Below, piece after piece: positions 31,519 to 43,845 of a DNA stretch of 64,000 nt. The position numbers and the translations under genes were made by a program. The notes beneath the pieces were generated by a model. The model was given only the letters and a program-made list of their open reading frames with translations, did no database searches and was not told the origin of the DNA. Location of the stretch: positions 372,001 through 436,000 of the forward strand of contig NZ_CP043617.1 of NCBI RefSeq assembly GCF_009258225.1, given 5' to 3'. Origin of the DNA: Sulfurimonas lithotrophica (GTDB lineage: Bacteria > Campylobacterota > Campylobacteria > Campylobacterales > Sulfurimonadaceae). Position 1 is the stretch's first letter. Every line of letters starts with the position of its first letter.

Positions 31519-31904
31519 TGAAGTACCTTGCAATAGATTTGGGTCTTAAAAGAATTGGTCTTGCGTATTCAGCTCATGCCGGCATTGTAACTCCGCTTCC
31601 TGCCATCATACGTAAAAATCGTAACCAAGCCAGTGATGAAGTAAAAAAAGCTATAAAAGAGTGGGATATAGATGCAGTAGTTATCGGAATCCCGATTGGT
31701 GGAGGCAGTGAAGATGAGATGCGCCGCAGGGTAGAGCACTTTATGAATTTAGTAAATTTTGAAGGTGAAGTATATTACCAAGATGAAGCAAACTCATCAC
31801 TTGAAGCAGAAGACTTGATAAAGGGTGAGATGAGACATCTAAAAGATGGCAGAATAGATTCTATATCTGCCATGATAATACTTCAAAGGTATTTGGGAGT
31901 TTAA
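31518..31904 (+). CDS. ruvX: Putative pre-16S rRNA nuclease / Holliday-junction-resolvase-like YqgF
   Basis: RNase H-fold protein involved in 16S rRNA 5'-end maturation. The start ATG at 31518 overlaps the mnmE stop (TAATG) and gives MKYLAIDLGLKRIGLAYS, where the first aspartate of the DxG motif is in place. Later motifs are VVIGIPIGGGSEDEM and YYQDEANSSLEAE, with RIDSISAMIILQRYL at the end. About 128 residues, normal for the family. Confidence 0.92.
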   Translation: MKYLAIDLGLKRIGLAYSAHAGIVTPLPAIIRKNRNQASDEVKKAIKEWDIDAVVIGIPIGGGSEDEMRRRVEHFMNLVNFEGEVYYQDEANSSLEAEDLIKGEMRHLKDGRIDSISAMIILQRYLGV

Positions 31905-32380
31905 ACCAAAGGACTCTCTGTAACTATAATTCCGTCCGTATCTGCATAGATATAATCCCCATTATCAAAACTGGCACCGCCAAAGGTCAGATGCACACCT
32001 CTCTCACCTTCAGTTGTAGGGATATACTTGTGCGGACAAGTCCCGAGTGCATAAAGTGCAACGGGAATATCTTTTATCTGAAAAGTATCACGGATATAAC
32101 CATTTACAATGATACCAGCATAGTTGTTCTGATGAGCAAACTTCATTAGATTCTCACCTACAACCGCAAAGTATTCCTCTCTCACATCTACAACTACTAC
32201 TTTACCCGTACCGTCTTCATCACGAAGAATTTTTATAAGCTCAGAATTGTTTTTATCCAGTTTTACAGTTACAACTTCACCTTTACATTTTGATGCCCCG
32301 CCGTAATTTTTAAAGTCGGGATTTAGCGTTATAACCTTATCGAAATGTTCATCACAAATATCTGCCGTAAAAAAGTCCAT
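31901..32380 (-). CDS. rraA: RraA family protein
   Basis: A 159-residue member of the RraA/HMG-aldolase family. It has TADICDEHFDKV at the N-terminus, VVGENLMKFAHQNNYAGIIVNGYIRDT (with the GxxRD core) and GDYIYADTDGIIV. In E. coli RraA inhibits RNase E; Campylobacterota lack a standard RNase E, so either a different RNase partner or an aldolase-type activity (the family metal/pyruvate site includes the RD pair) is possible. It overlaps the end of ruvX by 4 bases on the opposite strand. Confidence 0.82.
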   Translation of the reverse strand: MDFFTADICDEHFDKVITLNPDFKNYGGASKCKGEVVTVKLDKNNSELIKILRDEDGTGKVVVVDVREEYFAVVGENLMKFAHQNNYAGIIVNGYIRDTFQIKDIPVALYALGTCPHKYIPTTEGERGVHLTFGGASFDNGDYIYADTDGIIVTESPLV

Positions 32381-32840: not shown

Positions 32841-33146
32841 TTATTTAGACTCTATATATTTAGCTAAAGATTTGATTTGTTCGTCATTTAAAGTAGCTAC
32901 CTGACCTTTCATAAGAGCTTTCATAGGCCCTCCGTAACTTCCGTCTTTGTAACCTTTTAGAGCAGCTTCTGTTTTGCTTGCTTGCCAACCTTTAATAACC
33001 TGAGATTTACCTAAAGCTTTTTTCTCGGCATTCATCCCGTGACAGCCTGCACATTTTTTAAATATAGTTGCTCCGTCTGCTGCAGCTAAACTTGTTAATG
33101 AACCTATTAGTGTCAGTCCTAATATAACTTTATTAATTGTTTTCAT
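32841..33146 (-). CDS. Class I cytochrome c, periplasmic
   Basis: A 101-residue precursor with signal peptide (MKTINKVILGLTLIGSLTSLAAA) and one haem site, CAGCH, with the axial methionine probably in GGPMKALMKG. The C-terminal helix is DEQIKSLAKYIESK, as in small electron carriers of Campylobacterota (cytochrome c-553 type). It could feed the di-haem peroxidase at 12055 or a terminal oxidase; that is inference. It stands alone, 62 bases after the histidine kinase gene's stop on the same strand. Confidence 0.9.
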   Translation of the reverse strand: MKTINKVILGLTLIGSLTSLAAADGATIFKKCAGCHGMNAEKKALGKSQVIKGWQASKTEAALKGYKDGSYGGPMKALMKGQVATLNDEQIKSLAKYIESK

Positions 33147-35374: not shown

Positions 35375-35423
35375 TTTTAATTAATATTATATATGAGTTA
35401 TCTTTATATAATATTAATTAAAA
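35375..35423. promoter_or_regulatory. 19-bp perfect AT-only inverted repeat between divergent units
   Basis: Left arm 35375-35393 and right arm 35405-35423 are exact reverse complements (19 of 19, all A or T), separated by 11 bases. It lies between the lipoprotein gene (minus) and the mutase operon (plus), so it is not a terminator for either. The region 35356-35539 otherwise contains a TATAAT at 35513-35518 (with TTGCAAT before it) that may serve the mutase operon. Confidence 0.65.
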
Positions 35424-35539: not shown

Positions 35540-35953
35540 ATGAAAGTAGTAACAGGGGTAGTTGGAAACGACATACACGTGGTAGCCAACAGACTTATAG
35601 AACTCTCTTTGGATGCAAGGGGTTTTGAGGTTTTTAACTTAGGTGTAAACACATACCTAGAAGAGTTTTTTGATGCAGTGGTTGAAACCGGTGCGGATAT
35701 TCTTCTCATATCTTCATTAAACGGTGAAGCGGAAGGTTGGGCAAGAGAGGTAAAACTTCTAAAGTCAAAGTACAAAACACTTGATGATTTGGTAATGGTC
35801 ATAGGCGGAAACTTGGTGGTAGGTACTGCAGATGCAGACGTAATAGTTCCAAAATACAAAAACTACGGTTTTGATTTAGTATTTCATCAAGTGGATTTAA
35901 ATACGGGACTTGACACTTTAGAAGAGTTTATAAAAGAGAGACAAGCTTCATGA
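35540..35953 (+). CDS. glmS: Methylaspartate (glutamate) mutase B12-binding subunit S homologue
   Basis: The small subunit of adenosylcobalamin-dependent glutamate mutase, which interconverts L-glutamate and 3-methylaspartate. I start at ATG 35540 because upstream codons are AT-rich noncoding sequence; this gives MKVVTGVVGNDIHVVANRLIE, the family N-terminus, and 137 residues. The cobalamin motif is D11-x-H13-x-x-A16: the cobalt-ligating histidine is kept but the usual glycine is alanine. SSLNGEAEG (SxL) and VIGGNLVVG (GG) are present. It overlaps the large subunit by 4 bases. Confidence 0.87.
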   Translation: MKVVTGVVGNDIHVVANRLIELSLDARGFEVFNLGVNTYLEEFFDAVVETGADILLISSLNGEAEGWAREVKLLKSKYKTLDDLVMVIGGNLVVGTADADVIVPKYKNYGFDLVFHQVDLNTGLDTLEEFIKERQAS

Positions 35954-37314
35954 ATTTATTGCAAGAAGAACGTAAAATAATCCTCTCAAACGAACACGTT
36001 GACAACTTTGACTTTGCCGAGGTTGAAGAGTTTGTAAAAAATGCGAACAAAGAGCTTTTTATATCTCATCATTTTGCCCAAAAGAAAAAGATGCTTGTTC
36101 AACCTCGCGGTGGATTCCCGACATATAAAAAACAGTTTGCACTAAATGAGTTTTTTGTAAATGCAAATGTTGACGTACTGCCACTGACTATTGACTCCAA
36201 CACACGTCTTAACGATTATGCTACTGCTAAAAAGATGCTTCGTTTAAGTGAAGAGAGTGAAGTAGATATGTTAAACGGTTATCCGCTTGTAAATCATGGT
36301 TACCGCACAACTAGAAAGATGGTTACTCACTTTAACAAGCCTGTGTCACTTCGCCACGGTACACCTGATGCAAGACTGCTTATAGAGACTGCCATAGCAT
36401 CAGGTATTTTTGAGATTGAGGGCGGACCTATTACATATCTACTGCCGTACTCAAAAAACTTCCCTCTTGATAAAGCATTCCTTTACTGGAAGTATGTTGA
36501 GAAAGTATGTGCTAACTACTCAAAACTAAACCTGCCTATAAACCGTGAGTCTTTTGGACCTCTTACGGCTACACTTGTTCCGCCTGCCATAACCATAGTT
36601 ATTCAACTTTTAGAGATGCTTCTGTCTTTAGAAGAGGGTGTTAAGTCTTTCTCTGTTTCATTTTCGCAAACGGGTTCTATGAACCAAGACATAGTTATGG
36701 GACATGTTATCAAAAAGATGGCTAAGAAATATGCAGAGTCTATAAACTGCGGTGACGCTACCATCAACTTAGTATATCATCAGTGGATGGGAGCTTTCCC
36801 GACTAACAAAGATTTTGCAGAACAGCTTATAAATATGTCAACCGTTATAGCATCTATGGTCGGAGCTGATAAAATCATCACTAAAACACGTGAAGAAGCT
36901 TCGGGTATCCCTACAAAAGAGGCAAATGCAAAAACTGTTGCAAATACTCAGTACACTCTTGGCATCTTAAACGGTCTTCCAAATATAAAAGATGAAGAGG
37001 AAGAGGAAATTTTAACTCTTGAAGTCGAGGCTATTATGGAAGCTGTGTTTAACGACTCAGCCGATACCCTTTGGAGAAAAGTGTTTAACTCTATCAAAAA
37101 CGGGACAATTGACGTGCCTTTCTCGCCGCACATCATCAACCATAACGAGATGATAACAATACGTGATACAAATAAAAATATCCGCATCATTAAACGCGGG
37201 AACGTGCCTATACCTGATAAGTGTTTTGAATATGAAAAATCAAAATGTGACTTGAGTAAAGATACTACAAGTATAGTTAACGATATTATCCACGATATAG
37301 GGATTATGCAATGA
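35950..37314 (+). CDS. glmE: Methylaspartate (glutamate) mutase large subunit E homologue
   Basis: The catalytic TIM-barrel subunit, 454 residues (Clostridium GlmE about 483). Compared from memory with Clostridium cochlearium GlmE, the glutamate-holding arginine claw R66, R100, R149 corresponds to R53 (QPRGG), R86 (SNTR) and R135 (LRHGTPD). E171, Y177 and Y181 correspond to E157, Y163 and Y167 (EGGPITYLLPY), all at a constant offset of 13-14. INRESFGPLTATLVPP, VYHQWMGAFP and GIPTKEANA are also kept. Substrate is therefore probably glutamate. The C-terminus is shorter than in the Clostridium enzyme. It is coupled on both sides by 4-base overlaps. Confidence 0.9.
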   Translation: MNLLQEERKIILSNEHVDNFDFAEVEEFVKNANKELFISHHFAQKKKMLVQPRGGFPTYKKQFALNEFFVNANVDVLPLTIDSNTRLNDYATAKKMLRLSEESEVDMLNGYPLVNHGYRTTRKMVTHFNKPVSLRHGTPDARLLIETAIASGIFEIEGGPITYLLPYSKNFPLDKAFLYWKYVEKVCANYSKLNLPINRESFGPLTATLVPPAITIVIQLLEMLLSLEEGVKSFSVSFSQTGSMNQDIVMGHVIKKMAKKYAESINCGDATINLVYHQWMGAFPTNKDFAEQLINMSTVIASMVGADKIITKTREEASGIPTKEANAKTVANTQYTLGILNGLPNIKDEEEEEILTLEVEAIMEAVFNDSADTLWRKVFNSIKNGTIDVPFSPHIINHNEMITIRDTNKNIRIIKRGNVPIPDKCFEYEKSKCDLSKDTTSIVNDIIHDIGIMQ

Positions 37315-38492
37315 GTCAAAATAAACTTTTAATAGATATAGGAAGTACGTATTTCAAAGTAAGTACACCACAAAGTATTGAACAGCATTTTCGTGATTTT
37401 AACAAAGATATACATGATGACTTGACTCATAAGTGTGGTGATGTTATAAAAGGTTTTAACAAAGAGGACGTATATATCTGCTCATCTGCAAACGGTGGTT
37501 TAAGTACGCTTATTATCGGTCTTACAGAATCATATTCGCTTAAGTATGCTAAAAACATAGCTTTTAACTCGGGTATAAACATCATCGAGACTGTTATGTA
37601 TCAAAACATAGAGGAGTACTCACTTCCTAGTGACTTGATAGATGTAGTAATCATTGTCGGTGGGATTGATTCAAAAGAAAATATTTTCTCCACTCCGCTT
37701 TTTAACTACTTAGAGAACTTAAAGTACTCAAATATAGTTTATGTAGGAAGTGAGAAAGAGGCGGATAACTTAGCAAAAAATATAGAAAACCTAGTAATGC
37801 TCCCAAATATCATAGATGACAAACTTCATATTATTGAAGAGAATCTAAAAGAGTACCTTACAAATCTTTACCAAGCAGATATAGAGGGAAAAGAGGATAT
37901 AAAATCTCTTTATGATATTACTTCTAATCAGATATATTCTACTCCGTATATCGTAAATAAAACTCTGCCGCTTATAGATGCAAACTTCTCAGTGGTCGAT
38001 CCGTTTATACTTATAGATATCGGTGGGGCTACTACCGATATTCACTACTCAAAAGATTTAGTGGATGAGAACATAGTGACGGAAAACGAGTATGACAGAC
38101 TTGTGTTTAAAAAACTTGGTGTTTACAAGTCAAAAGAGTCCTTGATTTTTGCAGCTAAAAACAATGAGTTTACATACGAGTTACTAACGCATCTAAAAGT
38201 TACTGAAAACATCTTTGAAGAGTCAAGCGAAAAAGCACTTAAAGTTTTAATGCAGTTAGCAATCTTTTTAGTACTTACAAAGATGAGCCACTATAAACAA
38301 GCATATGTAAACCTGAAACTACTGTCTATAAATTCAATAGTTTTAACGGGTGGAATTACAAAGGTTTTAAATGACGATGAGGTAGCTGATATCATCTCAT
38401 TTTTTTACAAAAAGATTTTAAATTCAGAACATAACCCGACTGTCGTAATGGATAAAAACTACGATATTTGGACACTGGCAAATAAAGGATAA
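37311..38492 (+). CDS. glmL: MutL/GlmL-type ASKHA ATPase of the glutamate mutase operon
   Basis: MutL/GlmL proteins are actin/Hsp70-fold ATPases encoded with glutamate mutase and thought to protect or reactivate the B12 enzyme. This 393-residue version (usual length about 460) has phosphate-1 DIGSTYFKVS near residue 9, phosphate-2 LIDIGGATTDIHYS near 240 and an adenosine motif IVLTGGITKVL near 345. It is co-directional and overlaps the large subunit by 4 bases; the ligase follows 3 bases later. Presence of a dedicated partner supports a working B12 mutase. Confidence 0.85.
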   Translation: MSQNKLLIDIGSTYFKVSTPQSIEQHFRDFNKDIHDDLTHKCGDVIKGFNKEDVYICSSANGGLSTLIIGLTESYSLKYAKNIAFNSGINIIETVMYQNIEEYSLPSDLIDVVIIVGGIDSKENIFSTPLFNYLENLKYSNIVYVGSEKEADNLAKNIENLVMLPNIIDDKLHIIEENLKEYLTNLYQADIEGKEDIKSLYDITSNQIYSTPYIVNKTLPLIDANFSVVDPFILIDIGGATTDIHYSKDLVDENIVTENEYDRLVFKKLGVYKSKESLIFAAKNNEFTYELLTHLKVTENIFEESSEKALKVLMQLAIFLVLTKMSHYKQAYVNLKLLSINSIVLTGGITKVLNDDEVADIISFFYKKILNSEHNPTVVMDKNYDIWTLANKG

Positions 38493-38495
38493 TTC

Positions 38496-40067
38496 ATGAG
38501 TATTAATTGTATAAGAACATTGATAGAAGATTCTGCTCGTACACATGCTGATAAAACAGCCTTGGTTTTTAATGAAAAGAGCCTAAGTTATGCTGAACTT
38601 TTTGCTAAGGTTAATCAAGTAGCTTTATATCTTAGTGAGTTAGACCTACCAAAAGGCTCACGTATAGGTATATACTCAAATAAAGGGATTGAGCAGGTTA
38701 TCGCAATACTTGCTATTTTATCAACCGACTATGTTTTAGTTCCACTTACCAAATTGCTTAAGCCTGAACAGGTTGAGTACATTATCAACGACTGTGATAT
38801 CAAATGTATTATAACAGACAAACTAAAACTGGAAAACATAGAAGAGATAGACTTTAAGGGTAAGATAATATCTTATGAAACAACATCTAGCGATATTCCG
38901 TCGTTTGACGAGATTTACAAGTACTACAACAAACCGTATGTATGTGACATAAACGGACATGACAATGCAGTTATAACTTACTCATTTGGTTTAACAGGTA
39001 CTCCAAAAGGTATAGTTATCTCACACAGAAATCTTATCGATTCTGCACGTGTTGTTACTCAGTACTTAGATATAAATGAAGACGACGTAATATCAGGGCT
39101 TTTGATTTTCAATCTTGATTATGGTCTGAACCAAATCTTTTGTTCACTTTACAGACGTGCAACTTTGGCACTTCACAGATTCATTCTTCCTGATGACTTT
39201 TTTAATCATATAATAGATGACAAAGTTACGGTACTTCCGTTAATGCCTATAAATATAACTAAAATATTTGATGAAGATATGGGAAGAGCTCCAAGCAGTG
39301 AATTATTAGAGAATGTAAAAACTATAACTTCATCTGGCGGAAACGTAACTAAAAAAATGATTCAAGATTGTAAAAGAACATTTGTTAATGCCAAGTTTTA
39401 CTCTATGCACGGTCTGACTGAAGCGTTCCGCTCAACTTATCTTGACCCGAGCCAGATAGAGATAAGACCTGATTCTATCGGTAAGGCTATACCTGATGTT
39501 GAACTATATGTTATTAACGAAGAGGGTAAGGAATGTGCACCTCGCGAAGTCGGTGAGCTTATCCACAGAGGCGGTTATATCTACAAAGGTTTTTGGAACG
39601 CTCCAAAAGAGAATGCAGAGAGATTTAAATCGGTTAATATTTTAAAAGATGTAGTTAACCTCGAAGGTCAGCTTACTGATGAGCTTGTTGTAGCATCTGG
39701 GGACTATGTATATAAAGATGAAGAGGGTTATTTTTATTTTGTATCTCGCCATGACGATATGATAAAAACAAGAGGTTTTCGTGTATCGCCGCTTGAGATA
39801 GAATCGGTTGTAGTTAAAAACTTCCCATTAATAGAACAGTGCGTAGTGTTCTCTATAAAAAATGAAGAGATAGAAGAGGAGATAGTATTAGTTTACTCGG
39901 CAAAAAGCGAGATAGCTCCAAAAGAGCTGCTTTTTGAGCTTAAAAAGCATCTGGCTTCATATATGCTACCTGGAAAAATAATATATAAAAAATCACTTCC
40001 ACTTGTTCAAAGTGATAAAAACAAAGTAAATGTTGAAGAGTTAAAAAAAGAGTTGACAAACTCATAA
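38496..40067 (+). CDS. AMP-forming acyl/aminoacyl ligase of the mutase operon
   Basis: A 523-residue adenylate-forming enzyme. Core motifs: TYSFGLTGTPKG (A3; the usual SGTTG reads FGLTG), SMHGLTEAF (A5), GELIHRGGYIYKGFW, GDYVYKDEEGYFYFVSRHDDMIKTRGFRVSPLEIE (A7-A8, seen in parts) and a C-terminal lysine in LVQSDKNKVN (A10). The LDYGLNQ element and general look resemble the acyl-CoA ligases of exosortase-A loci. It ends the four-gene mutase operon. No acyl carrier protein is nearby, so the acceptor (CoA, amine or a distant carrier) is unknown. A natural inference is activation of 3-methylaspartate or a derivative. Confidence 0.85.
   Translation: MSINCIRTLIEDSARTHADKTALVFNEKSLSYAELFAKVNQVALYLSELDLPKGSRIGIYSNKGIEQVIAILAILSTDYVLVPLTKLLKPEQVEYIINDCDIKCIITDKLKLENIEEIDFKGKIISYETTSSDIPSFDEIYKYYNKPYVCDINGHDNAVITYSFGLTGTPKGIVISHRNLIDSARVVTQYLDINEDDVISGLLIFNLDYGLNQIFCSLYRRATLALHRFILPDDFFNHIIDDKVTVLPLMPINITKIFDEDMGRAPSSELLENVKTITSSGGNVTKKMIQDCKRTFVNAKFYSMHGLTEAFRSTYLDPSQIEIRPDSIGKAIPDVELYVINEEGKECAPREVGELIHRGGYIYKGFWNAPKENAERFKSVNILKDVVNLEGQLTDELVVASGDYVYKDEEGYFYFVSRHDDMIKTRGFRVSPLEIESVVVKNFPLIEQCVVFSIKNEEIEEEIVLVYSAKSEIAPKELLFELKKHLASYMLPGKIIYKKSLPLVQSDKNKVNVEELKKELTNS

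Positions 40068-42810: not shown

Positions 42811-43845
<1,035 letters not shown>

Follow-up and report, generated by a model that had tools for sequence, protein, structure and literature searches.

A glutamate mutase gene set of sulphur-oxidising and marine bacteria with a possibly repurposed ligase-like partner

The window analysed here is a 64,000-nucleotide stretch of the Sulfurimonas lithotrophica genome (contig NZ_CP043617.1, positions 372,001 to 436,000), which holds a glutamate mutase operon on the forward strand and, at a distance from it on the reverse strand, an RraA-like gene. The operon comprises glmS (35540..35953), for the cobalamin-binding subunit of glutamate mutase; glmE (35950..37314), for the catalytic subunit; glmL (37311..38492), for a short MutL-type ATPase of 393 residues; and a gene for a protein of the ANL superfamily (38496..40067), referred to below as the ligase-like protein. 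According to the table of open reading frames (ORFs), glmS and glmE overlap by 4 bases, as do glmE and glmL, and a 3-base gap separates glmL from the ligase-like gene, in agreement with the preliminary description of this DNA. Although an ATG already opens the glmS frame at 35393, the alignment with known GlmS proteins and their relatives begins at 35540. The four-gene operon is confirmed as real. As an account of the full set, the preliminary description was incomplete, having missed the RraA-like partner (31901-32380) and an aminotransferase gene that accompanies it in gammaproteobacteria.

The mutase subunits are readily recognised. GlmS scores 150.9 bits against NF002612 (PRK02261, methylaspartate mutase S; cut-off 110) and matches PDB entry 1be1 with an E-value of 5e-18. 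It carries DxHxxA instead of DxHxxG, which we take to be the cobalamin-binding motif of the mutase S chain; the histidine is retained, and the variant is conserved in 87 rows. GlmE matches PF06368 with 386.9 bits and the solved glutamate mutase 6h9e with 276.9 bits (E 2e-81), and falls slightly below the cut-off of TIGR01503 at NCBI (373.9 against 390.1). In the alignment to 6h9e, residues contacting the substrate and the adenosyl group are conserved across 89 rows; these are presumably the substrate-binding arginines, an active-site glutamate and tyrosine, and the lysine and glutamate that touch the adenosyl group. The mutase active site looks intact, and conversion of glutamate to 3-methylaspartate is predicted. 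GlmL matches PF13941 with 97.4 bits, lies far below the cut-off of NF040745 (80 against 475), and contains DIGST, DIGGATTD and LTGG, which we assume to be the functional motifs of MutL-type ATPases. No cobalamin riboswitch or other Rfam RNA reached gathering scores in the window and seven further loci.

The RraA-like aldolase/decarboxylase gene (31901..32380, reverse strand; PF03737, 120.5 bits) lies 3.2 kb from glmS in the window; the intervening genes encode a thioredoxin, a cytochrome c and a two-component pair, alongside a short ORF. Elsewhere the two genes are mostly head-to-head: they are divergent and less than 700 bp apart in 65 of the 72 loci holding both, a count of loci rather than genomes, as one genome may appear twice under different identifiers. 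Module-bearing Campylobacterota have RraA-like proteins 49-88% identical to that of the window, and the second RraA of 14 gammaproteobacterial genomes is only 31-41% identical to it. The fold family and the catalytic Arg-Asp pair are common to this protein and the HMG/CHA aldolase/RraA family; the pair is kept in the window and in at least 98% of 65 aligned RraA-like rows. For that family, PMC5065237 describes an arginine-dependent oxaloacetate decarboxylase activity. By eye, the gap between rraA and glmS (L060, L071, L088, L039 and other loci) contains back-to-back -10-like boxes with a shared T-rich centre, a pattern similar between Sulfurimonas and gammaproteobacteria. The small cytochrome c gene between the two (32841-33146, reverse strand) belongs to a cluster that also occurs near the ligase end in 16 other loci, largely of Arcobacter type, and a DctP-type TRAP solute-binding gene adjoins rraA in two genomes of the genus (L110, 11957-13090; L111, 7044-8180).

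The gene set is found in sulphur-oxidising and marine bacteria. A scan of the genome collection for the ligase-like gene returned 65 loci: 59 share 75-93% identity with it, four share 64-65%, and the remaining two, at 26-27%, are unrelated. The loci come from Campylobacterota, from marine Gammaproteobacteria and, in one case, from a Desulfobulbaceae bin. Among the 63 related loci (64-93% identity, in named or binned genomes), 47 have glmS, glmE and glmL and 39 the RraA-like gene, with several contigs terminating early. Across 397 Campylobacterota genomes, GlmE is present in 58. The ligase-like protein occurs in 57 of these and in none of the 339 without GlmE (E up to 1e-60), and the RraA-like protein in all 58 and in three of the 339, 61 in total (E up to 1e-20); the Fisher p-values of 1e-68 and 1e-66, respectively, ignore relatedness. 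Within the genus, the RraA-like protein accompanies GlmE in 8/8 genomes and is found in 0/20 without it. In a few genomes the RraA-like match lies on another contig or distant from glmE, and two genomes (G261 and G297) have the RraA-like gene alone. Genome G207 holds a decayed module (L147, 6269-7422), of which the rraA-like gene, glmS and 48 residues near the ligase end remain; glmE, glmL and most of the ligase-like gene were therefore lost together. When 369 genomes of the class of one gammaproteobacterial locus were searched, the ligase was 73-80% identical in four, the centre genome included, and the next matches fell to 33-40%.

Because there are 63 related ligase loci, 47 of them with all mutase genes, and 57 of 58 GlmE-bearing genomes with the ligase-like protein, the gene set is not a chance association. 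Comparison shows a five-gene module, an rraA-like gene facing glmS-glmE-glmL-ligase-like, that is common to two phyla and is retained or lost almost as a block. The proposal that the four operon genes act together is borne out by this distribution. A genome search for the four-gene set and its shared neighbours, as suggested in the preliminary description, recovered the set in those 47 loci and yielded as neighbours the RraA-like gene and the gammaproteobacterial aminotransferase, but no carrier motif nearby.

The ligase-like protein has an AMP-binding domain (PF00501, 214.1 bits) and is a sister of the exosortase-A-associated ligases; its closest NCBI family is TIGR03098, at 447 bits against a cut-off of 592 that is not reached. 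Its substrate pocket was compared with that of VinN (3wvn), through an alignment built on a Streptomyces plasmid homologue encoded beside GlmS, GlmE and a polyketide synthase. In the VinN structure, according to PMC11253843, D230, F231, S299 and R331 line the 3-methylaspartate pocket, with a shortened b13b14 loop; the activity of VinN is described in PMC11284099. The equivalent residues, D208, Y209, S280 and R312, are identical in 79/79 distinct full-length relatives. The D208 and Y209 codons, matching D230 and F231, lie at 39117..39122, and the R312 codon, matching R331, at 39429..39431 (E+3, with a loop one residue shorter); K330 of VinN is replaced by F311. The 79-row set excludes sequences with fewer than 430 aligned residues, those below 55% identity (used as sisters), the fragment L112 and one duplicate of the window protein, the last two of which are still included in the tree and the invariant-column comparison below. 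Pocket D and R also occur in 12/12 sister ligases, and Y and S in 10/12. With the VinN residues matched, the pocket appears to suit an aspartate-like β-amino acid, and the mutase partner is predicted to make one, 3-methylaspartate. Descent from enzymes with a 3-methylaspartate- or aspartate-type ligase pocket is supported by these alignments.

The residues that activate ATP have fared differently. A survey of 374 ANL enzymes names five invariant residues, Glu (A5), Gly, Asp (A7), Arg (A8) and Lys (A10), and ties the phosphate loop to the ATP phosphates (PMC6122825). Four of the five, Glu309, Gly359, Asp403 and Arg418, are each present in 79/79 members of the ligase-like family. At the A10 position, K510 in the window protein (codon 40023..40025), lysine is found in 33 of the 79 relatives, glutamine in 25, arginine in 8, glutamate in 7 and other residues in 6, with at least 12 changes between Lys and non-Lys on a quick tree; neither 508 nor 510 is lysine in 17/79, and no lysine occurs within 504-512 in 13/79. 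The phosphate loop departs from (S/T)-S/T-G-S/T-T-G: the second position is F164 (codon 38985..38987), a phenylalanine in place of Ser/Thr in 79/79 relatives, and the fourth, position 166, bears a hydroxyl residue, Ser/Thr, in only 9/79. Residue 164 is serine in all 14 outgroup ligases (12/12 sisters and 2/2 VinN-like proteins). Among 62 columns invariant in the sisters and VinN-like proteins, 29 are changed or less than 97% kept in the ligase-like family, seven of them in the phosphate loop (163-173) and three around A10 (509-513); one more of the 29 is the A5 Tyr305 position, now His in 78/79. We interpret this pattern as a decayed adenylation half-reaction in a protein whose substrate pocket has been strongly retained, an interpretation that does not by itself prove inactivity. 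An AlphaFold model of the protein has an ordinary ANL fold (pLDDT 79, pTM 0.77); Foldseek template-modelling scores of about 0.77 to several thiolation-state or adenylate-bound structures, against about 0.65 to GrsA or ATP-bound MatB, were not relied on.

The preliminary description had the ligase adenylating the mutase product. The half of this idea that concerns 3-methylaspartate as the ligand fits the pocket; the adenylation itself is made doubtful by F164 and the scattered A10 lysine. An active, VinN-like ligase would adenylate the β-carboxyl of 3-methylaspartate and pass it to CoA or a general carrier as a thioester, or into an amide or small peptide. The matched pocket speaks for this, as do the Streptomyces plasmid clusters in which a VinN-like ligase is paired with GlmS and GlmE, the Lys510 of the window protein and the universal E309, D403 and R418. 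The phosphate loop, however, is degenerate in all 79 relatives and the A10 lysine is a minority residue. Further, a VinO-type decarboxylase (TIGR03099) stayed below cut-off in all 45 Campylobacterota searched, where scores of about 200 and about 65 bits presumably reflect LysA and SpeA; only two Thalassotalea genomes exceeded the cut-off. No carrier motif, for which we took a GxDS-type signature, turned up in the 378 small ORFs lying up to 6 kb from the ligase across 110 loci (again loci, not genomes) apart from eight GlmS proteins, the search being confined to these neighbourhoods. An active ligase is an unlikely explanation, if still one to be reckoned with.

Among known systems, the vicenistatin genes VinH/VinI/VinN/VinO/VinL and their Streptomyces homologues (L121, L123) likewise pair a glutamate mutase with a free-standing ANL enzyme whose 3-methylaspartate pocket residues match. 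In VinN-like proteins, however, both the phosphate loop and the A10 lysine are preserved, whereas the ligase-like family is degenerate at both. They also come with partners that were not seen near the module: a pyridoxal-phosphate (PLP) decarboxylase, a carrier protein and a polyketide synthase. Unlike the module, the two Streptomyces plasmid stretches have no RraA-like gene annotated; their VinN/VinO/GlmS/GlmE-like genes (L121, 8680-13248; L123, 8716-13275) adjoin type I polyketide synthase and mycofactocin genes. The exosortase-A ligases of TIGR03098 share with the module protein the GLTEAFRSTYLDP motif and pocket D and R but retain, unlike the ligase-like family, the phosphate-loop serine and the A10 lysine (12/12). 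In two plasmid loci their partners are a TIGR03099 decarboxylase and an acyl carrier protein (ACP), with no glutamate mutase; there, in Aureimonas (L126, 7992-10792) and Sinorhizobium (L127, 7920-11049), the ligase gene stands beside that for the PLP decarboxylase and near that for the ACP, among glycosyltransferase genes. Since these ligases share the VinN-pocket Asp and Arg, the comparison suggests that the trio activates an aspartate-like β-amino acid that would be decarboxylated to a β-alanyl-type unit. Two further plasmids carry GlmE relatives in other settings. A long GlmE gene in Roseibium (L120, 2639-10069) lies between genes for an adenylation-domain protein with aromatic amino acid lyase and for an amino acid racemase, and looks like part of another peptide pathway; the gene for a distant GlmE-like protein in Methylobacter (L125, 4847-9206; 30% identical) is lined up with those for asparagine synthetase A and a B12-binding protein.

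The presence of glutamate mutase would, taken singly, suit ordinary glutamate fermentation or a methylaspartate cycle. A true fermentation operon, glmS-glmL-glmE-methylaspartate ammonia-lyase, is seen on a Prevotella plasmid, where the lyase gene adjoins glmE. It has the mutase subunits and GlmL in common with the module, which carries the ligase-like and RraA-like genes instead of the ammonia-lyase; the GlmE proteins are 34% identical. No full-length methylaspartate ammonia-lyase (PF07476) was found in 59 module genomes. Partial matches of enolase-superfamily type occur in 27 of them, 12 over the 27-bit cut-off, the best reaching 42 bits but aligning only about 73 of 249 positions, and the same family also matches 11 of 14 well-known control genomes. 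The match in the window's own genome, the one whose identity was checked, is an MR_MLE-type enolase-superfamily protein (MR_MLE_C, 129 bits). The setting therefore differs from a fermentation operon, as the preliminary description had held, and a fermentative role is scarcely credible.

The mutase also raises the question of its cofactor. CobA-type adenosyltransferase (PF02572) was found in 1 of 45 Campylobacterota, 25 with and 20 without the module, and in 7 of 14 controls; the PduO/EutT type was found in none of the 45 and in 9 of 14 controls, using PF01923, which we take to cover EutT and which matches in E. coli. A recognisable adenosyltransferase of either type is thus missing from 24/25 module genomes and likewise from 20/20 module-free ones (44/45 in total), so that import of adenosylcobalamin or an unrecognised enzyme must supply the cofactor in those 24. 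Could the ligase-like protein itself handle the B12 adenosyl group, by loading, rescue or as a new adenosyltransferase, with methylaspartate in the role of a signal? Its adenosine-side residues and methylaspartate pocket are kept while the triphosphate grip is lost, and the missing adenosyltransferases in the module genomes fit such a role. But the module-free relatives are also without them, an adenosyltransferase must bind triphosphate, importing the cofactor would be a simpler solution, and one genome, G356, has the mutase without the ligase-like protein; we hold this role to be very unlikely. A somewhat broader form, in which an adenylating enzyme has turned into a non-adenylating B12-mutase partner whose old active site holds the product and an adenosine group and which loads, gates or rescues the mutase, is only slightly less improbable. 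If true, the protein would be a naturally occurring ANL pseudo-ligase that has taken on a new part in radical B12 enzymology, in cells lacking every known corrinoid adenosyltransferase.

We favour, tentatively and with a probability of about 0.38, a reading in which the mutase product is bound by a non-adenylating ligase-like partner and is converted by transamination and RraA-like decarboxylation to 2-oxobutyrate. GlmS and GlmE, with GlmL, would convert L-glutamate to (2S,3S)-3-methylaspartate. The ligase-like protein, which appears to share ancestry with exosortase-A-type and VinN-type β-amino-acid ligases, may still bind 3-methylaspartate and an adenosine nucleotide. As the residues for holding the ATP phosphates and promoting adenylation are largely lost, it is most likely a product-binding partner of the mutase, acting as its carrier, gate or sensor, rather than an ATP-dependent ligase. 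Transamination of 3-methylaspartate would yield 3-methyloxaloacetate, through a dedicated aminotransferase in gammaproteobacteria and a housekeeping one in Campylobacterota, and the RraA-like enzyme would decarboxylate this to 2-oxobutyrate. In 14/14 gammaproteobacterial genomes reached through the loci, the rraA-like gene has an aromatic/aspartate-type aminotransferase gene no more than 6.3 kb away on its contig. The module would then be the gene set behind the old glutamate mutase route that leads to 2-oxobutyrate and on to isoleucine, supplementing threonine deaminase. Such a route to 2-ketobutyrate is listed in PMC7476758, where it is credited to Abramsky 1962; the module offers candidates for each step, the mutase, the aminotransferase (in gammaproteobacteria) and the decarboxylase. 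The scheme given there has no place for the ligase-like protein, whose part in the route is our inference.

Several observations weigh against this reading. On the side of the ligase-like protein, the window's own copy carries Lys510, and 62 of the 79 relatives, it included, have a lysine at 508 or 510; Lys508 could replace the A10 lysine in some of them, and some could therefore still adenylate. In G356 the ligase-like gene is gone after glmL with the rest of the module present. On the side of the route, 3-methyloxaloacetate is only a putative substrate of the RraA-like protein, and the E/D position of R-D-X2-E/D, which we assume to be the aldolase motif, reads Q in it. The dedicated aminotransferase of the gammaproteobacterial type was not found in 45 Campylobacterota (34 with and 11 without the module). 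The scarcity of recognisable adenosyltransferases for a B12-dependent first step counts here as well. Finally, IlvA matches occur in 79/79 genomes, comprising 45 Campylobacterota with the module, 20 without and 14 gammaproteobacteria; 66 exceed the short-form cut-off, and the other 13, all gammaproteobacteria, score 314-344 bits. There is therefore no isoleucine gap for the module to fill, and the route is at most supplementary.

Two related ideas were rejected. Replacement of threonine deaminase by the module predicted loss of IlvA, which these matches refute. The ilvC gene beside the operon (42823-43845) was considered as a functional partner; as it is absent from all other loci compared, its adjacency looks like chance. 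The ubiquity of IlvA, which makes a new isoleucine route unneeded, would also suit a clean-up branch, in which the RraA-like enzyme and the aminotransferase remove stray 3-methyloxaloacetate and the main product is made or carried with the ligase-like protein; the same co-occurrence of RraA-like and aminotransferase genes fits it. Neither an acceptor nor an end product can be put forward for such a branch, however, and the RraA-like gene is kept as strictly as the mutase, seemingly more than a repair enzyme would need, which leaves it improbable.

The preliminary description had found no published account of this gene set, and none appeared in titles or abstracts among the matches listed, mostly open-access literature; in two Sulfurospirillum papers, one had no mention of a mutase and the other only of dismutase. 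The observation of the preliminary description is confirmed and enlarged, and its interpretation partly supported. A B12-dependent mutase is kept in about one-seventh of 397 Campylobacterota genomes, almost always with ligase-like and RraA-like partners, and it brings with it the puzzle of the adenosylcobalamin source in these cells. The frozen pocket and decayed ATP chemistry argue strongly for a repurposed ANL enzyme. For the glutamate mutase route to 2-oxobutyrate, which we found tied to no genes in print, the module supplies candidates; it also points to an undescribed use of methylaspartate that is directly testable with a few purified proteins.

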